Positions 7,324 through 42,979 of a DNA stretch of 64,000 bases are shown here, piece by piece. The notes beneath the pieces are model-generated. The model did no database searches. It was not told the DNA's origin and saw only the letters and a program-made list of their open reading frames with translations. How positions within the stretch are numbered: position 1 is the stretch's first letter; each line of letters opens with the position of its first letter. Both the position numbers and the translations under genes were made by a program. This DNA comes from Desulfospira joergensenii DSM 10085 (GTDB lineage Bacteria > Desulfobacterota > Desulfobacteria > Desulfobacterales > Desulfobacteraceae), in NCBI RefSeq assembly GCF_000420085.1, contig NZ_ATUG01000002.1:2108001-2172000 (forward strand). Direction: 5' to 3'.

Positions 7324-7800
7324 AAATCGGTATTGGGATCTCGTCGGTTTTTCCCTCTCAACAAAACCAAATTTAAATTGAACGGACAGGCATAACCCGG
7401 CAGGGAGAGGCAAGGGGTGTTCCGCTAAATCATCTGCTCCCGTCCATGGGAGCAGATGAAGCTGAAAAGCCCGTGGTTTTCCCATCCTGGGACCCCGGTC
7501 TTTTAAGCCGCTTAACCCCTTGCCTTCCCTGTCTGATCCTCCAGGCGTGCCAAAATTGATCCTCTTCAAAGGTCATGCTGGCAGGGAGGCTGTTGAGGGC
7601 TGCAAGCGGAGTCATCGGACGGGATTCTTTACAGGCTCTTGGCCGTGCTTCTATGTTAAAAAAGGGGAACTGATTGAACGAAGTGAGTTTTCCCCTTTCT
7701 TAAGAAGTGCAGGTTAGAGCCTGTTAGAATCGTTCGCCCTGCGGAGCTGCGGTCCTTGACGGTCGGTTAGAATAGTGTCTTTCTCTCAAATTTACACTTG
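7324..7800 (+). repeat. Structured interspersed repeat, copy 1 (about 477 bp)
   Basis: Direct repeat of 26597-27075, same orientation, almost identical length, clearly homologous over its whole span. It folds into two arms. Arm 1 pairs 7401-7418 with 7515-7531 and encloses an 11-bp perfect hairpin (7431-7441 with 7448-7458). Arm 2 pairs 7623-7639 with 7716-7731 and encloses a hairpin around 7661-7699. The paired segments are preserved in both copies. Short frames inside (for example one reading GELIERSEF) are not kept open between copies, so it is probably non-coding: a structured RNA or a non-autonomous mobile element. Confidence 0.75.
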
Positions 7801-7976
7801 TATTTCTGGGTTAGGAATGATTATCTCCAAATTATCCTTAATATGCGGTTTCTTTCCAATGGGGAATGCACCAGGTGGATTTCTCGGACGTCTTGGTCAA
7901 CTTTTAAAAAAATAGCACAAAGATGTTTTAAAAGCTCTAATAGTCCATTTTAAAGAATGATTGAATAGGAAAATCA
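7801..7976. other. AT-rich spacer between repeat and island gene
   Basis: Base composition drops sharply after the structured repeat and stays AT-rich through the next gene. I see no gene here. It must hold the promoter of the 7977 gene, but no convincing -35/-10 pair stands out. Confidence 0.4.
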
Positions 7977-8702
7977 ATGATTAATTACCAGGAATTACCA
8001 CCAGGTTGGGGTAATGATTCCTTGTCGAAATATCTTGAACAGGCTTATAAAAATACACTTGCATCGTTTGTGAATTTAAGAACCGAATATCAAGTTTTGC
8101 ATGATATTGTTAACAGTTTTGGGAAAATTATTGATCACATACAAAAAACCGAAGATTTGTACTATTCTTTTTTCATAATGCGGGTTCAATGTTCTTTTAT
8201 GGGAAGTATAAGCCTTGCCCTCGCTGGGCAAACGTTTGAAACTTATTTGGTTTTACGAGGTTGTCTTGAAGTTAGTCTATATGGCCTTTATATCTCCCAA
8301 AGTCCTAAAAGACTGCAAATATGGCTAAATCGAGAGAAAAATGAAGAAAAAAAAGAACGATGTAAAAAAACATTTTCTGCGTACAATACTTTGGAATGCC
8401 TTAGAAAAATTGACAACGAGACCTTTTGCATCGCACAAAAATTATATGATTTGACCATCGATCTTGGTGCTCATCCGAATGCAACAGGAGTGCTGTCAGC
8501 GATCAAAGCTTGTAAAGACGAAAAAGCCGTTGTTTATAAAACTCATTGTCTTGCAGCAGGCGACACACAAATGATGTTGAGCTTGAAAACATGCGCTCAA
8601 GTTGGAGTTTGTTCTTTGCAGATATTTAAAAATATATTCCCTCAAAAATTTGACATTTTGGGAATTTCTGAAGATTTAAATCGCCTCAAAGCGGGCTTGT
8701 GA
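7977..8702 (+). CDS. Hypothetical protein of AT-rich island
   Basis: 241-aa protein not recognised from its sequence. It is predicted to be mostly helical, with no signal peptide and no clear membrane segment; the stretch FMGSISLALAGQTFETYLVLRGCLEVSLYGLYIS is hydrophobic and resembles the buried helices of helical-bundle proteins. Its codon use is strongly AT-rich (many AAA, ATT, TTT), unlike the genes on both sides, and it lies directly right of the structured repeat, so horizontal acquisition is likely. A HEPN-like helical domain is a weak guess only. Confidence 0.65.
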   Translation: MINYQELPPGWGNDSLSKYLEQAYKNTLASFVNLRTEYQVLHDIVNSFGKIIDHIQKTEDLYYSFFIMRVQCSFMGSISLALAGQTFETYLVLRGCLEVSLYGLYISQSPKRLQIWLNREKNEEKKERCKKTFSAYNTLECLRKIDNETFCIAQKLYDLTIDLGAHPNATGVLSAIKACKDEKAVVYKTHCLAAGDTQMMLSLKTCAQVGVCSLQIFKNIFPQKFDILGISEDLNRLKAGL

Positions 8703-8843
8703 TCTAATAAGTATTTAATTTTAATATATGATATTATAAGTGCAATCTTTCAGTCAACTACCGAAAAGTCTACTCAATACTTTATCAATTTGAGAGCCGG
8801 GATTTAAAATTTAAGTTGAACTGTTTGTATGAGTTCGTGATAT

Positions 8844-9872
8844 TCAGATCATCAAGTCCTGGAATTCGGAAGAGACCGGGGTAGTTACCTGAATGAGGGA
8901 TTCTTTTTCGTTTTGAATAATTCTTACTTCCGAAGGAGTGCCGGGTTTGGCCTTGGTGTAGGAGGCCAGCATGGCTGCGGCAGTCTGCACTTGTTCCCGG
9001 CCGAACTTTCCGGTTAAAACCGCATCCGGGCCGGGCAGGGAGGTATGGCGGAGCCGAAGATCCTTTTCCGGGTCAACCAGGGAAAGGATGTTTTTGTTGT
9101 CTGCTTTGTTTCTTCCCATGATGAGTTTGCATTTGTCTGTGCTTTCCGGAGAGTTGAGCCTGAAATGACGCCCGTGCTTGAGCAGATGGATCTGCCGCAC
9201 TTCACGGGTTTCCTGGACAAAGAGAAGGTCCCTGAGCCGTTTGGAAAAACCAGGATCCGTGAGCAGGCATCCCCCGGCAGGGGAGGGGTAGTCACGGATT
9301 TTGAATTCCCGGGCCATGTCCATCTGAATTTTCCTGGACCGGCCGTTAATGCCCAAAAGCGTTTCCCTGTTCACCAGGCCCTGTTTTTCCATGGGGGTTT
9401 CCGGCAGGCACAGGGCGCTTAGGGGCCTTAAGATATATCCGTCCATGCCTGAATTTTTCTCAACATATCTCAAGGCATTTTTGGTCTGGGATTTGGGGCG
9501 CTGCCCCACCACCTCACCGGAAAAAAGAAAATGAAATCCCCTTTCTTTCATCAGGTCTCCGGCCTTGGCAAACATCAGGGCATGGCAGTCCATGCAGGGA
9601 TTCATGTTTTTGCCGTACCCGGCCCTGGGCGCCAGGAGCATTTCCATGTAATCTTGGGTGATGTCCCGGGTAATGAGTTCGATTCCGGTCCGGGCAGATG
9701 CTTTCCGGGCGGATTCCGATGAAAAGAACGGGGTCTCAAAACTGACCCAGGTGACTTCAATACCCTGTTTTTTCAGCACCAGGGCCGAAAGCATGCTGTC
9801 CAGCCCTCCCGAGCAGAGGCCCAGTGCTTTTATCCGGGGGCTTGTCGATCTTGTGATTTTATCCTGATTCAT
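8844..9872 (-). CDS. PP-loop ATPase of the ThiI/MnmA-like class with C-terminal NFACT-R-like region
   Basis: 342-aa N-type ATP pyrophosphatase. The PP-loop LGLCSGGLDSMLSALVLKKQ lies near residue 17, followed by NPCMDCHALMFAKAGDLM and LFSGEVVGQRPKSQTK, as in 2-thiouridine-type tRNA-modifying enzymes. A second cysteine is in SPAGGCLLTDPGFSKRL. The C-terminal third (KLIMGRNKADNKNILSL, then LPGPDAVLTGK) resembles the NFACT-R fold seen in ribosome quality-control proteins. The likely role is sulfur transfer to a tRNA base; the exact substrate cannot be read from sequence. It is divergent from nth with a 24-base gap. Confidence 0.82.
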   Translation of the reverse strand: MNQDKITRSTSPRIKALGLCSGGLDSMLSALVLKKQGIEVTWVSFETPFFSSESARKASARTGIELITRDITQDYMEMLLAPRAGYGKNMNPCMDCHALMFAKAGDLMKERGFHFLFSGEVVGQRPKSQTKNALRYVEKNSGMDGYILRPLSALCLPETPMEKQGLVNRETLLGINGRSRKIQMDMAREFKIRDYPSPAGGCLLTDPGFSKRLRDLLFVQETREVRQIHLLKHGRHFRLNSPESTDKCKLIMGRNKADNKNILSLVDPEKDLRLRHTSLPGPDAVLTGKFGREQVQTAAAMLASYTKAKPGTPSEVRIIQNEKESLIQVTTPVSSEFQDLMI

Positions 9873-32643: not shown

Positions 32644-34728
32644 CTAAGCTTTGGACACTTTGACAAAATGTTCCTGGTAGGCAATGGCTCCGCCTGCCTT
32701 GTCCCAGATATCCATTCCGCCTTTCATGAACTTGTTGTCGGCCAGGCCTTTGCCGAAAGCCCGGGATTCGGCTTCCAGGCGGTGGCCGAAACCGTGGATG
32801 ACAAAGACAGCCTCGGGGTGGATGATGTCCGTGACCTTGGCCTTAATGGTTTCCGTGTAACCGTCCTGGCTCACGTTGACCGTGTCCCCGTCTGAGATTC
32901 CCAGTTTTTCCGCCTCTTGGGTATGAATCCAGAGGACATTTTCCGGCATCTGCTCATAGAGCATGGGGTTGTTCACGGTGTGACCCTGGGTGTGGAGGGC
33001 GCACCGGCCAAAGGTTATCCTGAATTCGCCTTCCTCCGGCTTTTTCGGGGATTCATAGGGCTTGAGGGAAGGGATTCCGTTGTCTTCCAGTTTCTGGGAA
33101 ATCATTTCGATCTTGCCGCTGGGGGTCTTGAACTTATAATCCTGAAAATCCAAATATACGGGCTTTTCCGCCAGGGAGACCATTCCTTTTTCATCAAAAT
33201 CCTCTATGGTGAGGCCAGTGCCTTGAAGCTGGAAGTTCCAGACATCCTCCCGGGTCTCAAAGGCCAGTTCAGGCAGGTCCAGACGCTTGGCCAGGCCCGA
33301 GACGATTTCCCAGTCGGATTTGGTGTCATAGCAGGGATCCACGGCCCGGCGCCGGACAAAGAACTGGGGCTTAAGGGCATTTTTGGTGGCGATGATGCTT
33401 TCCCTCTCCAGATAGGGAGACAGGGGCAGGACAACGTCGGAATACCAGGCTGTGTCTGACCAGCTGAAGGTGACGGAAACCAGTAGGTCCAGCTTGTCCC
33501 ACATCTTTTTGACCCGATCCGGATCCGGGTATCCCATGAGGGGATCATGGCGGTAGGCGATATAGGCTTTGACCGGGTAGGGATCTTCGGTTTCCATGGC
33601 TTCAAAGAGCAGGTGGGCAAGGCCCGGCCCCTCTTCAAAGTGTTTGTATTTCCAGCCGATGCCGTCGGCCCGTTTTTCTTCGGGCTTGGGGTATAGATCC
33701 ATGAATTTTTTCAGGCCCTTTGCCCCCACATCTCCGGGCTTGCTTACAAAGGGAAGTCCGCCTTTGGCGCCGTAGGATCCCAGCAGGGCATTGATGATAT
33801 AGATGGAACGGCAGATATAAAAGGAGTCCTTATACCGGGCCGCCATCCAGCCCGGATGCCAGATCACGGCAGGGGCGGCATCGGCAATCTCCTTGACAAA
33901 GCTTTTCAGGGTGTCGGCCGGAATTCCGGTTTCCTGTTCCGCCCATTCCGGGGTGTAGGGAACCACAAACTGCTCCAGATCCCTGAAGCCTTCGATATAC
34001 TTTCTGACAAATTTATCATTGTAAAGACGCTTGTGGATCAGTTCGTGGATGACGGCCAGGTTAAAGGCATAATCGGTTCCCGGGCGGATTTTCATGAAAT
34101 TATTGGCCTTGGAGGCCGAGACATTGGAGCGGATGTCGATGACGGAAAGGCGGCATCCTTTTTCCATGGCATCCATGAGGTTGTTGACCTCCTGGACATT
34201 GACGGATTCAAAGATATTCCGGAACTGGAGGATCACATGTTTGCTGTTCTTCAGATCATAGGCCACGGCTTTTCTTCCCATCCCGGTGAGGGAAAGGGCG
34301 GAGTGCTGGACGTTTCTGGCACAGGAGGAGTCATGGTTGTTGTAGTTCGGGGTTCCCAGTCCTTTGAGGAATGCCCGGTGAATGTCCCGGAAAGGGCCTC
34401 CCCGGTCCGTAAAGGCGATGGCCCTGGCCCCATGGGTCTCCTTGATCTGTCCCAGACGGTCGGCCACATGGTCAAAAGCTTCTTCCCAGCTGGCTTTCCG
34501 CCATTTCCCCTCTCCCCGCTCTCCCTCCCGGATCAGGGGGGTCTGGGGGCGTTCATGGTCGTATATCAGGCCGGTACCGGCCGCGCCCCTGGGGCATACA
34601 GCGCCTTTCATGGCAGGGACATGGGGATTGCCTTCGATAAAGGACACCCGGCCATTTTGAACCTGTACTTTGATGGGGCAGCGGACCGTACACATGCCGC
34701 ATACGCTGAAAACAGAACTTTTTGCCAT
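32644..34728 (-). CDS. Molybdopterin (bis-MGD) oxidoreductase, DMSO-reductase family catalytic subunit
   Basis: 694-aa catalytic subunit. An N-terminal [4Fe-4S] motif uses Cys10, Cys13, Cys17 and Cys45 (CGMCTVRC..VCPRG). The probable molybdenum ligand is Cys136 in HDSSCARNV. Further family motifs are DIRSNVSASKANNFMKIRPG, WYSDVVLPLSPYLERES and the C-terminal bis-MGD-binding GDTVNVSQDGY. It resembles the thiosulfate/polysulfide-reductase (PhsA/PsrA) branch in length and motifs. There is no Tat signal, so it is cytoplasmic, and no small subunit is adjacent; the ferredoxin and flavoprotein genes at 12542-16835 are plausible partners. The substrate cannot be assigned. Confidence 0.9.
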   Translation of the reverse strand: MAKSSVFSVCGMCTVRCPIKVQVQNGRVSFIEGNPHVPAMKGAVCPRGAAGTGLIYDHERPQTPLIREGERGEGKWRKASWEEAFDHVADRLGQIKETHGARAIAFTDRGGPFRDIHRAFLKGLGTPNYNNHDSSCARNVQHSALSLTGMGRKAVAYDLKNSKHVILQFRNIFESVNVQEVNNLMDAMEKGCRLSVIDIRSNVSASKANNFMKIRPGTDYAFNLAVIHELIHKRLYNDKFVRKYIEGFRDLEQFVVPYTPEWAEQETGIPADTLKSFVKEIADAAPAVIWHPGWMAARYKDSFYICRSIYIINALLGSYGAKGGLPFVSKPGDVGAKGLKKFMDLYPKPEEKRADGIGWKYKHFEEGPGLAHLLFEAMETEDPYPVKAYIAYRHDPLMGYPDPDRVKKMWDKLDLLVSVTFSWSDTAWYSDVVLPLSPYLERESIIATKNALKPQFFVRRRAVDPCYDTKSDWEIVSGLAKRLDLPELAFETREDVWNFQLQGTGLTIEDFDEKGMVSLAEKPVYLDFQDYKFKTPSGKIEMISQKLEDNGIPSLKPYESPKKPEEGEFRITFGRCALHTQGHTVNNPMLYEQMPENVLWIHTQEAEKLGISDGDTVNVSQDGYTETIKAKVTDIIHPEAVFVIHGFGHRLEAESRAFGKGLADNKFMKGGMDIWDKAGGAIAYQEHFVKVSKA

Positions 34729-35954: not shown

Positions 35955-36272
35955 TTATGGATGATTTTTTATGTGCCGGGCCAGGTCCAGGCCCTCTTTT
36001 TCAAGAAGAGAGAGCTTCAAATCCATTCCTTTCAAGGCCTTTTCTCCTGGGGCAGACTCAAGGGCCTTGGCTGCCCTGGCTGCTTTTTCCGCCGTGAGAT
36101 ATCGGAGCATTCCCTTGAGTCTGTGGGCGGCCCGGTTCAGATGTCCGGCTTTCCCGGCCCGGCCTGCCGCCTTGATCTCCCTGAACATACCCGGCCATTC
36201 AGACAGGAAATCATTGAAACACTCCCGGACAAGTCCCGTGTCATTGTCCATGATCCCCATGAGTTCATTCAT
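35955..36272 (-). CDS. Stand-alone HPt phosphotransfer protein
   Basis: 105-aa helical protein with the HPt motif LNRAAHRLKGMLRYL, phosphoacceptor His50, preceded by VRECFNDFLSEWPGMFREI. It ends in basic residues. It is the last gene of the minus-strand operon that includes a receiver/solute-binding fusion (37058), its likely phosphotransfer partner. No kinase is encoded in the operon, so phosphate may come from a kinase elsewhere. Confidence 0.88.
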   Translation of the reverse strand: MNELMGIMDNDTGLVRECFNDFLSEWPGMFREIKAAGRAGKAGHLNRAAHRLKGMLRYLTAEKAARAAKALESAPGEKALKGMDLKLSLLEKEGLDLARHIKNHP

Positions 36273-36358
36273 ATTGATTATCCCTTCATCGGGACGGGGT
36301 TCCGGTACGATCTCCTCCCGTTAAAAGCCGAAGATTTTGCCGGGCATTCTTCCTGAAA

Positions 36359-37048
36359 TCAGGACTCTTTTTTCTGATCCCAGAAATCGCGGCTTTCTTT
36401 GAGGATATCATTGATATCCTCATCAAGAACCTCCTCCTGGAGCAATTCTTCATCTTCCAGATCCATATTTTCCAGGCTGTTCTCTTCCGGGTCCTGGTCT
36501 GCCCCGTCTTCGGTTTCCTGTGTCAGGGGATCTGATTCCTCCAGGGCAGGGGATTGGCCGTCATCACCGGGTTCATCCTCCAGCCCGTAGTCCGGAAGAT
36601 CAATCTGGAGTTCTTCCTCATCCTCATCAACAGGGGCAGGGTCGTCTGAATCTTCATTTTCGGACAATGGATCCATTTCGTCTCCGGGATCGTCCAAATC
36701 CATTGATTCAAGACTGCCGTCCATGGCATCGGATTCATCAATCTTATTTTCCGTTTCACTGTCCGGGTCCTGGTCCATGGAATCTTCCGAATCTATGTCC
36801 TCGGAGGAACGGATATGGTTTCCCTCCCGGTCAAACAGCAGGCTGCCGCTCAAGTGGACATCAAAATCAAGTCTGAAAGCCACTTGGTTGTCATGGACCA
36901 CGATCTGCCCCCCTTTTGAAGAAAGGGATCTGGCCGTGAGCCTGTTTTTGATGATGTCTTTTACGGCATCCAGGTCCAGGTCTTCCTTGACCGCATCAAT
37001 AAGGTCTTTTTCTCCGCTTTTAATGACGTCAGGGTCTGTTATTTTCAT
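36359..37048 (-). CDS. Highly acidic protein with short N-terminal domain
   Basis: 229-aa protein. The N-terminal 80 residues (KSGEKDLIDAVKEDLDLDAV, then GGQIVVHDNQVAFRLDFDVH) look like a small alpha/beta domain. Residues 80-220 are almost only Asp, Glu, Ser, Pro and Gln, clearly disordered and strongly negative. The final DINDILKESRDFWDQKKES could form a docking helix. It lies 9 bases after the receiver/solute-binding fusion in the same operon. An adaptor or decoy for a basic partner is possible; the family is not recognised. Confidence 0.75.
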   Translation of the reverse strand: MKITDPDVIKSGEKDLIDAVKEDLDLDAVKDIIKNRLTARSLSSKGGQIVVHDNQVAFRLDFDVHLSGSLLFDREGNHIRSSEDIDSEDSMDQDPDSETENKIDESDAMDGSLESMDLDDPGDEMDPLSENEDSDDPAPVDEDEEELQIDLPDYGLEDEPGDDGQSPALEESDPLTQETEDGADQDPEENSLENMDLEDEELLQEEVLDEDINDILKESRDFWDQKKES

Positions 37049-37057
37049 GGGCGACTC

Positions 37058-38434
37058 CTAGAGGTTATACGCCTTGTTTGCGAAATCCGGCTCAATGAAT
37101 TTTTCCAGATCGATTATTTTACCGATTTCCATGACATCGTGCATGTACTTCTGAATTTTGTCCAGGTCTTTGGCATTGGGATACAGCCCGTCCCAATGGA
37201 TGGCCTTGGGCTGGGAAAAAACGTTTTTCAGAACCTCGGGGTTGAGGCCCAGTTTGCCTTCAGGGTCGAGGAATTCCACGGCGATTCCGGCGGCTCTGAC
37301 CTTATCGTTTTCAATGTATTCCCCGGTTTCAACGAGAAGGGATACAAATTCCTGGGCTGCCTCGGGATGGTTCTGGATAAAATCATCCTGCATGGCCACG
37401 ATGCAGCAGGGATGGTCATCCCAGCGGGTGGCAGAGTAAAATTCAAGGTTGCCGACCTCGGTGGCAATGGCCTTTGTGGCCACGGGTTCGGCCACCATGA
37501 ATCCGGCCACATCTTCGTTTTCCTTCATGATGCCCGGCATTTTTACCGGGGGAACCACCTCAAACCGGACGTTGATGGCCTTTTTCCCGGGGACCCCGGG
37601 TTTGAGTCCCAGTTCCTTTAGAAACTGGTGGGCCAGCATATGATGGACGGACATCTTGTGGGGAATGTCCACGACCTTGTACTTGTAGAAGCTCTGGAGG
37701 GAGTCGAACCTGTGGTCGTAATGCCTGGATCGGACAAAGGTGGATCCGTTCTTATGGGCGTACAGGACCAGACGGATGGGCGAATCATAGGCAAAAAGGT
37801 CCATGGCAATGGGAGCAAGGACAAAGGCACAGTCTATTTCCCCGGTTTCAAGCCCTTCCTGGATGGGATTCCATCCGCCTTTCATGCTGGTGGTCAGGTC
37901 AAAATGCTGGGGCTCCACATCCCCGTTCTCGATCCTGTGCTTGAGAGCTCCCAGGGCAAGGTGGTCTGTGATCTGGATATGGGCGACGTTGAGCTCGACT
38001 TTCCCGCCGATTACGCTTCTTTTCCTGGGGGTTCTGGCCGTGTCCTGGGTTTCCCCGGAAAATGCCTTTTCAATGGCTTGGCCGATCTGGTTCTCGTCAA
38101 AGGGTTTGGGAACATGACCGCTTCCCCCGGCCTCCATGATGGCGATCTGCTGGCCCTTGTCCGACTGGGCCGTAGCCATGATAAAGGGAAGATCCTTGAA
38201 CTCTTCGGTCTTTCGCAGTTCCTTCAGGAACTCCAGTCCGTCCATCTGGGGCATATTCCAGTCGCTGACCACCAGGTCGGGCTTTTCGGATTTGACCTTT
38301 TCCAAACCGTCTGCGCCGTTCACCGCCATTACCAGGTTTTCATATCCAGCCTTTTTGAGGATCTGCTTGAACATGATGCGCATGGTTCCTGAATCATCGG
38401 CCACGACAATTTTAATATCCGGGTTTACTGCCAT
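37058..38434 (-). CDS. CheY-like receiver fused to an NrtA/SsuA-type solute-binding domain
   Basis: 458-aa cytoplasmic protein with a rare build. Residues 5-128 are a receiver with acidic pocket VVADDSG, phosphoacceptor Asp58 (VVSDWNMPQMDGLEFL) and the conserved Lys in GSGHVPKPFDENQ. After a linker, residues 148-458 are an NMT1/NrtA-like periplasmic-binding fold (VAHIQITDHLALGALKH, DDHPCCIVAMQDDFI) with no export signal. The second half is a paralogue of the 41279 protein. It sits between an ABC permease and an HPt gene, suggesting that ligand binding in the cytoplasm is tied to phosphorylation. Confidence 0.93.
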   Translation of the reverse strand: MAVNPDIKIVVADDSGTMRIMFKQILKKAGYENLVMAVNGADGLEKVKSEKPDLVVSDWNMPQMDGLEFLKELRKTEEFKDLPFIMATAQSDKGQQIAIMEAGGSGHVPKPFDENQIGQAIEKAFSGETQDTARTPRKRSVIGGKVELNVAHIQITDHLALGALKHRIENGDVEPQHFDLTTSMKGGWNPIQEGLETGEIDCAFVLAPIAMDLFAYDSPIRLVLYAHKNGSTFVRSRHYDHRFDSLQSFYKYKVVDIPHKMSVHHMLAHQFLKELGLKPGVPGKKAINVRFEVVPPVKMPGIMKENEDVAGFMVAEPVATKAIATEVGNLEFYSATRWDDHPCCIVAMQDDFIQNHPEAAQEFVSLLVETGEYIENDKVRAAGIAVEFLDPEGKLGLNPEVLKNVFSQPKAIHWDGLYPNAKDLDKIQKYMHDVMEIGKIIDLEKFIEPDFANKAYNL

Positions 38435-38525
38435 TGCAACGCTCCTTGGTTTTATATAATATTATGCTAATTTAAATTTTTGTTTATCCTTGTCCCCTTG
38501 GGGACCCTAAACGTATCTGCCCAAA

Positions 38526-39356
38526 TTATTTATTCCAGGACCAGGCCAGCGACTGCTGGAGCTTTTGAAAAAAACGGTCCAATATAAAGCCCAGGATTCC
38601 GATGGCGATGATCATGGCCATGAGTTTGTCGTACTCCATGGTGTCCCTGGCATCATTGATGAGATATCCCAGACCGCTGGAAACTCCTAAAAATTCTGCA
38701 GGCACGAGTACGATCCAGGCCACTCCCAGGGCCAGCCTCAGGCTGGTGAGCATATTGGGAACCGCAGCCGGAATCACTATGGTTCGAATAATCTGAAAAT
38801 TATTCGCTCCTTGATTCAAAGCCATTTTAATCCACTGGGGATTTATATTTAAAACACCTATGGTCGTGTTCAATATTATAGGACAAATGGTCGCCATTAC
38901 AATCAAAAAATACACGGCAGACTCAAAGCTTGCAAATAAAAGCAGGGCAATGGGCATCCAGGAAAGGGGGCTGATCATCCGGATAAACTGAATGGGGGAG
39001 TAGGAAAGTCCGCGGAGTTTGGGGAAAAACCCCACCAGGATGCCGATGGGAAATCCCAGGATGGAGGCGAGCAAAATTCCCGCCAATATTCTTCTCAGGC
39101 TGGTAAAGACCGAAACCCAGAACTGGTTTTCCTGGAGGGCCCTGCCCAATGCGGCAAAGGTGGGGCCGGGCAGAAATCCGTTGAATTGGGAGAATTCAGG
39201 TTTTGAAAAAATCAGTTCCGCTCCCAGGATCCACACCCCGGCAAAGAAGGCAAGCCCCAGAAGTTCGTATTTCCAGCCAAACTCTTTGGTTCCGAAAACC
39301 GCATTGAGCCCCACCTGTTTCGCGTTTTTATAGATGAATTTATTAATTGATTTCAA
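38526..39356 (-). CDS. ABC transporter permease of the nitrate/sulfonate/taurine type
   Basis: Inner-membrane permease, about 277 aa, with six helices and the EAA-type loop ALNQGANNFQIIRTIVIPAAVPNMLTSLRLALGVAW facing the ATPase. It belongs to the SsuC/NrtB/TauC family. The start is unclear: TTG at 39356 (overlapping the binding-protein stop by 14 bases) is taken here, but the frame remains open to a TTG at 39410. The ligand is not deducible from the permease. Confidence 0.9.
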   Translation of the reverse strand: MKSINKFIYKNAKQVGLNAVFGTKEFGWKYELLGLAFFAGVWILGAELIFSKPEFSQFNGFLPGPTFAALGRALQENQFWVSVFTSLRRILAGILLASILGFPIGILVGFFPKLRGLSYSPIQFIRMISPLSWMPIALLLFASFESAVYFLIVMATICPIILNTTIGVLNINPQWIKMALNQGANNFQIIRTIVIPAAVPNMLTSLRLALGVAWIVLVPAEFLGVSSGLGYLINDARDTMEYDKLMAMIIAIGILGFILDRFFQKLQQSLAWSWNK

Positions 39357-40521
39357 CGATCTCTTCCCTTGAGTAGGGTGTTGCCGTGGTGCAGTCGCAG
39401 AAGGCTTCAATCCCGCCCATCTGCTCGATTGCCTTTTTTACAAACCGGTCGTCCACCAGTTCTTTTGCGGCAAGATCCGTATCCAGGGCCTCTAGAAAAT
39501 GAGTGTCCCCTTCCACCCGGGTAACTTTCATCTGTTCCAGGATAAATTTCGTGGCAGAGGGAAACGGATAGGGCTGGAACCCGATCCTTGACGGTTTCCA
39601 GTCCGGATGGACCAGTTCTCCGGGTTTGGGATCCTGGAACACTTTGATCAGAACTTTTTCAGGCAAAGGCAGGTATCCTTCTCCGTCCCGGCTCAAAAGA
39701 TGGGCCGTCTCCCTGGGATTGTTCCTGCACCAGACCTGGGCCCGTACAATGGCGTTCACCGCCTTTTGGACAAGGACGGGATCTTTGTCGATCAGGGGCT
39801 GGCCTGTGACAATCACACAGCAGGGATGATTCTTCCAGATATCTCCGGTATACCGCATGATCTTTGCCTTGAATCTGGTCTGGGCCAGGGCGTTGAAGGG
39901 GTCGGCTACGATAAAGGCATCTATCTTTTTCCCCAGAAGAGCCGCGGGCATATCCGGGGGCGGCAGGATGAAGAGGTTGACCTGACCGGGACCAAGCCGG
40001 TCCGACTGGGGACGGATCACCGGTTCCAGCCCCTGGGTCCTCAGACCCAGCTGGAGAATGAGATTATGCATGGAATACCATGACGGGACAGCCACCTGGC
40101 GGCCGCCCAGGTCGGCAAAACCGTGGATGCCTGAATCCCCCCGGACGGTCACGGCACTGCCGTTGGTGTGATCCCAGGCCAGTACTTTGACCGGAAACTT
40201 GCGTTTGAATCTCATCCACACCGGGATGGGAAAGAGCATATGGGTCAGATCAAATTTCCCGGCCAGAAAGGATTCAGTCAGAATTTTCCATGACCGGACC
40301 ATGACGGGACGTTCAACCTCAAGCCCTTCCTGGGAAAAATATCCCAGTCCGTGGGCCACCAGCAGGGGAGTGGCGTCGGTGATGGGCAGATATCCCAATT
40401 TTAAAACCGGCCTGGCGGAAAAGGCCTTCTGGGGAATCGCCAGGCCGGAACATGCGGCCGCTGCGGTTTTTAAGAAATTTCGCCGACTCATGGGCAGGGA
40501 ATTTCCTTGGAAATTGTCCAT
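39343..40521 (-). CDS. Tat-exported ABC solute-binding protein of the NrtA/SsuA type
   Basis: 392-aa binding protein with a twin-arginine signal (MSRRNFLKTAAAACSGLAIP), so it is exported folded. The mature part starts LKLGYLPITDATPLLVAHGLGYF, typical of the NMT1/nitrate-sulfonate binding family, and contains WKNHPCCVIVTG, a motif shared with both signal-less paralogues in the operon. It lies one base from the ATPase gene and is the only one of the three binding domains likely to serve transport directly. Confidence 0.92.
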   Translation of the reverse strand: MDNFQGNSLPMSRRNFLKTAAAACSGLAIPQKAFSARPVLKLGYLPITDATPLLVAHGLGYFSQEGLEVERPVMVRSWKILTESFLAGKFDLTHMLFPIPVWMRFKRKFPVKVLAWDHTNGSAVTVRGDSGIHGFADLGGRQVAVPSWYSMHNLILQLGLRTQGLEPVIRPQSDRLGPGQVNLFILPPPDMPAALLGKKIDAFIVADPFNALAQTRFKAKIMRYTGDIWKNHPCCVIVTGQPLIDKDPVLVQKAVNAIVRAQVWCRNNPRETAHLLSRDGEGYLPLPEKVLIKVFQDPKPGELVHPDWKPSRIGFQPYPFPSATKFILEQMKVTRVEGDTHFLEALDTDLAAKELVDDRFVKKAIEQMGGIEAFCDCTTATPYSREEIVEIN

Positions 40522-41289
40522 CTAAAGCAGGCTCCTCTTGGCCAGATAGGCGGTTTTAAACCTGTCCAGGATCTTATGCCGGATTTCCTTGAACCGCATC
40601 TGGTTCCGGTCCCTTGGATAGGCTTCGTTTATTTCAAACGTCTGGGTGATATTGGCCGGCTCGCCGGCCAGGAGAATAATTTTATTGCCCAGACGGATGG
40701 CCTCGTCAATGTCATGGGTGACAAAAACAGCCGTGAACTGCTCGGAGAGCCAGAGGTTGACCAGTTCCTCCTGGATATGGGCCTGGGTAAAGGTATCCAG
40801 GGATGCAAAGGGCTCATCCAGGAGCAGAACCCTGGGATGACCTACCAGGGCCCTTGCCAGGCATACCCGCTGGGCCATGCCCAGGGAAAGCTGGTGGGGC
40901 ATGGAATCGGTAAACCCGACCAGCCCCATGATCTCAAGGAACTGATTGACACGATAATCCAGGTCCTCCAGATCGCCCCGGATCCTGCATCCGTATGCCA
41001 CATTCTCCTTTACATTCAGCCAGGGGATCAGGGCAGGCTGCTGAAAGAGAATGGACCGGGACGGATGAATTCCCAGGATGGGCTCCCCATCCCCGAGAAT
41101 GGTGCCCGAGGTCGGCTGTTCAAGCCCTGCCAGAAGATTGAGAAGGGTGGTCTTGCCACAGCCGGATTCTCCCAGGATAACGATAAAATCTCCGGGTTCA
41201 ATGGAAAAGGCAATATCCCTTAAAACAACGTGTTCGCCCTTTTGGGGATCGGTATAGGTTTTGGTGATTTTCTGGAGTTCAATTTTCAA
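40522..41289 (-). CDS. ABC transporter ATPase of the nitrate/sulfonate/taurine type
   Basis: 255-aa ATPase energising the 38526 permease. Walker A VILGESGCGKTTLLNLLAGL, signature LSLGMAQRVCLARAL, Walker B RVLLLDEPFASLDTFTQ and the switch VFVTHDIDEAIRLG. The Q-loop is FQQPALIPWL. Its start overlaps the end of the preceding signal-less binding-protein gene by 11 bases, so they are in one operon. Confidence 0.95.
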   Translation of the reverse strand: MKIELQKITKTYTDPQKGEHVVLRDIAFSIEPGDFIVILGESGCGKTTLLNLLAGLEQPTSGTILGDGEPILGIHPSRSILFQQPALIPWLNVKENVAYGCRIRGDLEDLDYRVNQFLEIMGLVGFTDSMPHQLSLGMAQRVCLARALVGHPRVLLLDEPFASLDTFTQAHIQEELVNLWLSEQFTAVFVTHDIDEAIRLGNKIILLAGEPANITQTFEINEAYPRDRNQMRFKEIRHKILDRFKTAYLAKRSLL

Positions 41290-42232
41290 TAGTTACTTCC
41301 GATACGGCGTTTAACGCCCAGGTGGGGTTGAGAAAATCGTCCAGATCAATTTTGCCGGACAGGATGCCCATGACCTCAACCATATAGGTCTGGATCATGT
41401 CGATGATGCCGGGGTCCGGCACCAGTTTGGGCGGGTCAAAGCTGATCCTGCTTTCATAAAGGGCCTTTAAAACAATGGACTCTTCCTGTTCCAGAAAATC
41501 CAACATCCAATCCATCTCCCAGGACTCCTCTCCGGCCGCGATCTGCTCTTCCAGGAGCCGGGCAGAATGGAAAAAATGACGGATCAGCTCTTCCATGGCC
41601 GGAAAAGATTCCCTTGCAAGCTCCTTTTCAAGGACAAAAGCACAGCAGGGGTGGTCTTTCCACAGGCTGGCCGATGTGCAGAACAGGTCTCCGAAACCCC
41701 GGTTGACGGCCAGGGTGCCAAAGGGTTCGGCTGCCATGTACCCTCCGATATCTCCATCCCCGTCCGATTCCATGATCTGGGGCATGAGAAAGGGTGGGGT
41801 GACCTGCATGGCCACATCTGATGTGGATTCAGGTCCAAAGCGGATTCCGGAGGCTTCCAGGAGTCTGTGAAAAAGCATGTGCTGAACGGACAGTTCCGAG
41901 GGGATCAGAAAGGTCTTATTCTTAAATGATGAGATATTTGTACGGGTCTTGTTTTTAATGATCATACTGCCGGATCTGTGGGCAAACATCAGACATTCCA
42001 AGGAAAATCCGGATGCGTGCAGATCCATAGCCATGGGCAGGGGGATGAAAGCCCCCTGGATATCCCCCTGTCTGAGCCCGTCACAGACCTGATCCCAGGA
42101 GTTCATGGGAACGGGAACAAGATCTGAGTGAACCAGTTGCTTTTCCCTCTGCCTGAACGCTGACATGCCCAGGACCAGATGATCCAGGATTTTTAAATGC
42201 CCGATTCGAATCCCTGCCGGTTTTCCCCCCAC
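41279..42232 (-). CDS. Signal-less (cytoplasmic) NrtA-like solute-binding protein
   Basis: 317-aa binding-fold protein with no signal peptide: it opens MGGKPAGIRIGHLKILDHLV, directly at the first strand of the fold. It aligns with the binding half of the 37058 fusion throughout (IGHLKILDHLVLG vs VAHIQITDHLALG; IPLPMAMDLHA vs LAPIAMDLFA; WKDHPCCAFVLEKE vs WDDHPCCIVAMQDD). It is the first gene of the operon. A cytoplasmic ligand sensor, or a soluble competitor of the fusion protein, is more likely than a transport role. Confidence 0.88.
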   Translation of the reverse strand: MGGKPAGIRIGHLKILDHLVLGMSAFRQREKQLVHSDLVPVPMNSWDQVCDGLRQGDIQGAFIPLPMAMDLHASGFSLECLMFAHRSGSMIIKNKTRTNISSFKNKTFLIPSELSVQHMLFHRLLEASGIRFGPESTSDVAMQVTPPFLMPQIMESDGDGDIGGYMAAEPFGTLAVNRGFGDLFCTSASLWKDHPCCAFVLEKELARESFPAMEELIRHFFHSARLLEEQIAAGEESWEMDWMLDFLEQEESIVLKALYESRISFDPPKLVPDPGIIDMIQTYMVEVMGILSGKIDLDDFLNPTWALNAVSEVTIEN

Positions 42233-42466: not shown

Positions 42467-42979
42467 ATGGATACACATTCTGAAAAACCAGTCCCCCTGG
42501 ATTATTTTTTAAAACCGGGATACATTTATCTGCCTGAAAAACCCACGGTCATCTCCACGGTCCTGGGTTCTTCGGTTTCCGTCAGTCTTTTTGACAGATC
42601 CATGAAGAGCGGCGGCATGAGTCATTTTCTTTTCCCCTTTTCAAAACATCCTGAAAAGACAACGGCCCTGTACGGAAATATTGCCGTGGCCACCCTGGTG
42701 AGGATGATGCTTGAAAACGGATCCAACCGCTCGGATCTGGAGGCCCAGATATTCGGGGGAGCCTACAATCCCAATCTATGTGACCGGGATATCGGCCGGG
42801 ACAATCTAAGGACGGCCCGGAATATTCTGAAAAGAAAAGGGGTGAAAATCGTTTCCCAAGACGTGGGCGGGGAACGGGGCCGGAAAATCGTCTTCAACAC
42901 CCAGACCTGCGAGATCATCACGCTTAAGGTAGACCGCCTCCGGGACTCCGACTGGTATCCCTACGAGGGAGACCGGTAA
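42467..42979 (+). CDS. CheD-like protein lacking the catalytic cysteine
   Basis: 170-aa CheD homologue. The family segment usually read as TLGLGSCVAV here is STVLGSSVSVSLFD, so the nucleophilic Cys is Ser36 (codon TCG). His53 in GGMSHFLFPF and the Thr are retained, and the downstream DLEAQIFGGAYNP (usual AKIFGGA) and RDIGRDNLRTARNIL are conserved. Glutamine deamidation of chemoreceptors is therefore unlikely, although a serine nucleophile or a binding-only role is possible. It is divergent from the solute-binding operon and may belong to it functionally. Confidence 0.85.
   Translation: MDTHSEKPVPLDYFLKPGYIYLPEKPTVISTVLGSSVSVSLFDRSMKSGGMSHFLFPFSKHPEKTTALYGNIAVATLVRMMLENGSNRSDLEAQIFGGAYNPNLCDRDIGRDNLRTARNILKRKGVKIVSQDVGGERGRKIVFNTQTCEIITLKVDRLRDSDWYPYEGDR

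Follow-up and report, generated by a model that had tools for sequence, protein, structure and literature searches.

NasS, an NrtA-like protein of the cytoplasm, acts through the receiver protein NasT (PMC3795266). The C-terminal domain of NrtC/CmpC (8wm7, 9uai, 9u9z) is a cytoplasmic, NrtA/CmpA-like reader of the solute of an ABC importer, and a domain of this type keeps the ATPases blocked until nitrate binds (PMC13249358). The initial annotation of the locus described here noted that NrtA-type domains normally act outside the cytoplasm; these proteins show that a cytoplasmic role for them is already known. CheV combines a CheW-type coupling domain with a phosphorylatable CheY-like receiver; the role of its phosphorylation is still called uncertain (PMC12691637). 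CheWS, in which a spirochete CheW is joined to a CheR-like domain that senses SAM, is cytoplasmic and governs chemotaxis, and is presented by its authors as the first characterised CheW-fused chemotaxis sensor (PMC10653840).

The operon considered here lies on contig C2 of the 6.1-Mb genome of Desulfospira joergensenii DSM 10085, in a window of 64,000 nucleotides, that is, the whole stretch of DNA that was analysed. It encodes REC-NMT1, a receiver fused to a signal-less solute-binding domain. We lean towards the reading that REC-NMT1 serves chemosensory (CheA-type) pathways as a cytoplasmic sensor-adaptor, reading both a ligand and phosphorylation, and that its CheW-less form, the one found in the window, would report imported solute. 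Among the papers searched, there was no description of the REC-NMT1 module or of a cytoplasmic solute-binding chemosensor.

The operon and its conservation

The seven ORFs of the operon run on the minus strand from 42232 to 35955 (Table 1), and an ORF check reproduced the ends given initially. The spacing is operon-like, as the gaps between adjacent genes, where these do not overlap, are of no more than about 100 bases. The ATPase, the permease and the Tat-exported binding protein form a complete ABC importer with an exported binding protein; the start codon of the permease is uncertain, and its ORF overlaps the gene of the exported protein. The ATPase (255 aa) matches ABC_tran only, the C-terminal NMT1 domain being absent by Pfam, and its NCBIfam matches, of the SaoA/ntrCD/TauB/SsuB-like kind, are every one below the cut-off. 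In the signal-less first-gene protein (SBPcyt) the NMT1_2 match begins at residue 5, and the motif is WKDHPCC. All three NMT1_2 (PF13379) domains of the operon exceed the Pfam cut-off (79–147 bits versus 24.7); thus the three related W-x-x-HPCC binding domains of the initial annotation, one Tat-exported (39343) and two signal-less (41279 and 37058), were recovered both by Pfam and by the motif check. There are no CheA, CheW or receptor genes within the operon. The molybdopterin oxidoreductase found beside it is related to the thiosulfate reductase PhsA, with a score of 539 bits, under the equivalog cut-off, and its adjacency to the operon is not kept in relatives.

Table 1. Genes of the operon and its neighbours, in window coordinates
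Feature	Position	Strand	Basis
SBPcyt, signal-less cytoplasmic NMT1_2 protein, first gene	41279..42232	-	Pfam NMT1_2 5.9e-22
ABC importer ATPase	40522..41289	-	Pfam ABC_tran 1.3e-33
Tat-exported NMT1_2 substrate-binding protein (SBPtat)	39343..40521	-	Pfam NMT1_2 1.2e-42 and TAT_signal; WKNHPCC
ABC importer permease	38526..39410	-	Pfam BPD_transp_1 8.6e-22
REC-NMT1 fusion, 458 aa	37058..38434	-	Pfam Response_reg 7.7e-27 and NMT1_2 3.2e-26
Acidic protein	36359..37048	-	no Pfam or NCBIfam family
Single-domain HPt, His50 in AHRLKG	35955..36272	-	Pfam Hpt 3.4e-9
CheD, divergent from the operon	42467..42979	+	Pfam CheD 9.2e-22
Molybdopterin oxidoreductase, PhsA-related	32644..34728

The gene order SBPcyt-ATPase-SBPtat-permease-REC-NMT1 is retained in 20 fetched relatives, and this conservation rules out the operon being a product of chance or an assembly artefact. 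REC-NMT1 is 69–87% identical across other genera of the Desulfobacteraceae, the fusions in Desulfotignum, Desulfobacula and Desulfobacter being 82–86% identical. It is generally the most conserved product, with 73–87% identity in the 20 relatives versus 56–81% for the permease and 31–49% for SBPcyt, the fastest-evolving member, whose orthologues occur in each of the 20 fetched importer operons. CheD occupies the same divergent position in 12 of these 20 operons. A search at 1e-30 yielded no plasmid-borne REC-NMT1.

The two distal genes, said initially to complete the operon, are both present, the HPt being dispensable. The acidic protein is kept in nearly all of the 20 relatives, and its orthologues lie beside stand-alone REC-NMT1 at about 36 loci. 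Its N-terminal approximately 80 aa (by alignment of the N-terminus) and its C-terminus are conserved, with a variable acidic stretch between them; the AlphaFold model is poor (pLDDT 69, pTM 0.34). The HPt gene is found in only seven relatives, hence its rejection as an essential part, although the His is conserved in all eight sequences. These two genes are the ones that would matter if the locus encoded a NasS-NasT-like switch, in which ligand and phosphate control expression of the importer via the acidic protein or an HPt relay to another regulator, and chemotaxis plays no part. The operon has an HPt with the conserved His, its acidic protein is inherited along with the stand-alone fusion, and NasS provides a precedent for an NrtA-like protein working through a receiver. 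However, Pfam and NCBIfam detect no ANTAR, HTH or other nucleic-acid-binding domain in the operon's proteins, the HPt is confined to the seven relatives, and the outputs carried by relatives of the fusion are CheW, not DNA or RNA domains. We consider such a switch quite improbable.

The REC-NMT1 module and its architectures

REC-NMT1 consists of a CheY-like receiver (residues 3–129) and an NMT1_2 domain (residues 143–458), predicted to be cytoplasmic. The fusion, and the intact Asp58 noted at the outset, are borne out by Pfam and by an alignment of 87 modules from the Desulfobacterota, a spirochaete and Bacteroidota/Ignavibacteria MAGs, the presence in the Bacteroidetes and Spirochaete lineages being known from single MAGs. 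The active site of the window receiver is complete (D13/D14, D58, T88, K110). D14, D58 and K110 are present in 87/87 modules and T88 in 86/87; a loss of active-site residues was sought as grounds for refutation and not found, and neither was evidence of export of the binding halves in the modules compared. The cleft motif is invariant at the sequence level, as residues H152, D157, H158, H227, H259, W338 and H341–C344 (HPCC) of the pocket are the same in 87/87 modules.

W-x-x-HPCC is common to all three binding domains of the operon. The first-gene protein does not always retain HPCC, having YPPD in the L054 relative, and W-x-NHPCC marks the subfamily of the importer's binding protein in general and is not specific to the operon. 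The Tat-exported protein shares with REC-NMT1 the motifs ITD, HxNGS, SMH and W-x-x-HPCC; it lacks H152 and H158 of the module, and hence the pockets of the two proteins are expected to be similar, not identical. Its nearest solved sequences are 3un6, the regulatory domains of CmpC/NrtC, and NrtA. Nitrate or bicarbonate is doubtful as a ligand, since every module has Cys in place of the Lys of the HPEK/HPGK type; this Lys, which follows the conserved HP, presumably has a role in NrtA.

The AlphaFold model of REC-NMT1 is confident (pLDDT 90.2, pTM 0.87). The receiver half is closest to CheY both in sequence and in structure (Z 23), and the binding half is two-lobed, with Z-scores of 37.2 for 3un6, 35.8 for NrtA, 34.8 for CmpA and 33–34 for the CmpC/NrtC regulatory domains. 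In binding-protein domains the ligand closes the lobes, and in receivers phosphorylation remodels the alpha4-beta5-alpha5 face; we infer that REC-NMT1 combines the two events. An NMT1 half that binds nothing, serving as a scaffold or spacer to position an ordinary CheY-like receiver, is hardly credible. It has no known ligand, and the motif has decayed in the first-gene relative of L054; but the predicted fold is that of a complete two-lobed binding protein, and the inspected pocket motifs are invariant in 87 divergent modules, whereas a mere spacer would have no need of such constancy.

The fusion used as a query retrieved full-length relatives, 41–49% identical, within longer ORFs. By Pfam these are mostly REC-NMT1-CheW, with three instances of REC-NMT1-HATPase-STAS and one of REC-NMT1 followed by SpoIIE. 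REC-NMT1-CheW in a single ORF accounts for 34 of the 87 full modules. One ORF (L045:5790-9407) encodes a 1205-aa tandem protein, REC-NMT1-REC-NMT1-CheW, with two complete modules in one polypeptide. In a phylum-wide draw outside the Desulfobacteraceae, a CheW profile built for this analysis matched 18 of the 20 loci fetched, that is, every resolved relative, the remaining two being left unresolved by the ORF tiling. The statement that receivers normally carry output domains still holds: the binding domain would act here as a second input, and it is the relatives that carry the output.

In the tree of the 87 modules, 42 stand-alone forms, including that of the spirochaete MAG, make up one branch (SH-aLRT 100), and the rest are mostly CheW forms. 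CheW was likely lost in the lineage of the window, the tree being unrooted. The window protein has Response_reg and NMT1_2 only by Pfam; thus the fusion of CheW to a candidate ligand-binding domain is seen in relatives and is absent here. The search for relatives yielded no CheW-fused copy of the module in the window's genome.

Chemosensory surroundings and the importer

Stand-alone REC-NMT1 may also be situated in a chemosensory cluster. At L075 it lies, together with a signal-less NMT1 protein, among genes for two CheA, CheW, a CheY-like protein, CheR, CheB, two CheD and CheX. At L053, the second REC-NMT1 copy in its genome adjoins two CheA, hybrid kinases and a CheX-like protein, and at L044 REC-NMT1-CheW is followed by a receiver and CheA. 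The genome of the window has six matches to the CheA dimerisation domain and several CheW; the nearest CheA cluster found (C2:2184446-2187651) is outside the window, about 35 kb from the operon. Together with the CheW fusions and the divergent CheD, these clusters give strong genomic support to the initial suggestion of routing into a chemotaxis-like response.

Two arrangements recur. Three loci (L042, L048, L050) share a trio of a REC-SpoIIE phosphatase, REC-NMT1-HATPase-STAS and CheA, reminiscent of a partner switch joined to a chemosensory kinase. A convergent pair is found in two genomes (L055:7204-8142 and 8290-9738; L075:6379-7317 and 7324-8637), formed by a signal-less stand-alone NMT1 protein of 312 aa and a protein of 437–482 aa with no Pfam match. 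The 312-aa protein is present in most of the Desulfobacteraceae.

The module is co-inherited with the importer. Among 98 relatives, the Tat-exported binding protein and the module are both present in 47 and both absent in 48, the importer alone is found in one and the module alone in two. The importer-only genome (G024) is represented by a 6253-base contig ending just past the permease, where the fusion would begin. This co-occurrence partly reflects shared descent within one family. Outside the family, the module is present in 5/5 genomes with the importer versus 2/34 without it (Fisher p 4e-5), and in several of these importer genomes the module lies on another contig than the importer or at a great distance from it. 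At L041, a REC-NMT1-CheW gene is directly upstream of an importer of the same type. In the wider phylum, the module is found in 20 of 395 genomes and most CheW-fused relatives have no orthologue of this importer, while the only further genome with the importer binding protein (45% identical) lacks the module. Hence the importer is not the only signal source of the module, and reading of imported solute cannot hold everywhere. The initial proposal that the protein monitors the solute after uptake has indirect support: co-occurrence and shared pocket motifs speak for it, and the importer-less CheW-fused relatives against it.

In another reading, SBPcyt and a phospho-controlled REC-NMT1 regulate in trans as NrtC/CmpC-type domains, docking on the ATPase and gating transport by the ligand in the cytoplasm, and motility is not involved. 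Both in sequence and in structure the binding half can be aligned with the C-terminal regulatory domains of NrtC/CmpC, domains of this type do hold ATPases blocked, and the gene of SBPcyt, present in all 20 importer operons examined, overlaps that of the ATPase, like a split-off domain. On the other hand, such a function has no need of a receiver; most REC-NMT1 relatives carry CheW or another signalling output in the same chain and are encoded away from such importers; and importer homologues of Methylocystis, Marinobacter and Pseudosulfitobacter have neither SBPcyt nor REC-NMT1 annotated nearby. Regulation of this kind is unlikely in our opinion.

These latter homologues (L209, L210, L211) are on plasmids, and their binding proteins are 47–53% identical with WKNHPCC kept. 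They sit with OsmC and acyl-CoA-dehydrogenase-family genes, and in some cases with a sulfurtransferase or cyanase, which hints weakly that the solute is an organosulfur or thiocyanate-like compound; the literature searched for this yielded nothing usable. A more distant homologue (45%, L207 in G470) adjoins a CO-dehydrogenase/prismane-family protein whose N-terminus is rich in His.

Under the sensor-adaptor reading that we prefer, a CheA-class kinase would phosphorylate the CheY-like receiver, the NrtA/3un6-like domain would close on a small cytoplasmic ligand, possibly shared with the importer, and the two states would jointly set the action of REC-NMT1 on its partners. The C-terminal CheW found in most lineages would place the sensor into the receptor-CheA array, as a CheV-like protein with its own ligand-binding domain. 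In the window lineage, CheW-less REC-NMT1 would be a separate CheY/CheV-like input, co-produced with the importer and presumably coupled to the array, so that uptake of the solute would be reported to the chemosensory pathway and could affect steering or other CheA-controlled behaviour. Absence of CheW from the window fusion, of a CheW-fused copy among the relatives retrieved from its genome, and of CheA, CheW and receptor genes from the operon count against this reading, as do the few fusions with non-chemotaxis outputs, such as SpoIIE, or the one beside a REC-GGDEF protein (L046).

More tentatively, REC-NMT1 might define a widespread class of intracellular chemosensors that integrate occupancy and phosphorylation, with interchangeable outputs (CheW arrays, RsbW/RsbV-type partner switches and SpoIIE phosphatases are proposed), by which anaerobes could steer or reprogramme themselves according to imported solutes. 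If so, binding-protein domains, mainly known as outside nutrient catchers, would double as internal receptors of chemotaxis arrays. REC-NMT1-CheW would offer a conserved model for testing how phosphorylation of a coupling protein is combined with ligand occupancy, and the stand-alone form a possible route to metabolism-dependent (uptake-reporting) taxis in the Desulfobacteraceae.

Comparison with described systems

Among solved folds, 3un6, a Staphylococcus aureus binding protein solved with zinc, comes closest to the NMT1 half, and it shares CC of the HPCC motif; unlike REC-NMT1, it belongs to an import system according to the entry title, and has no signalling domain. The regulatory domains of NrtC/CmpC are the nearest solved relatives after it. 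They differ from REC-NMT1 in being fused to the ATPase, in having no receiver and in regulating transport directly, and have HPGK/QPKK at the position of HPCC; the window ATPase, in turn, carries no fused NrtA-like domain.

NasS-NasT resembles REC-NMT1 in that a signal-less cytoplasmic NrtA-like protein works with a CheY-like receiver. It consists, however, of two separate proteins with an RNA-binding ANTAR output and senses nitrate/nitrite, whereas no operon protein of the window matches ANTAR.

REC-NMT1-CheW relatives share with CheV the CheW-type domain and the phosphorylatable receiver, although the two come in the opposite order and are separated by an entire binding-protein domain. With CheWS they share the covalent joining of CheW to a cytoplasmic small-molecule sensor, a putative one in their case; CheWS has a CheR-like sensor in place of an NMT1-like one, and lacks a receiver. 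A supplementary figure of the CheWS paper counts 30 undescribed CheW architectures, and REC-NMT1-CheW may already be, unstudied, among those represented there (PMC10653840). The window protein does not have CheW and a receiver in one chain, and since CheW is absent, we class it neither as CheV nor as CheWS. Each of its parts has a precedent, in NasS-NasT, the NrtC/CmpC domain, CheV or CheWS, and it may be regarded as a variant chemosensory input protein.
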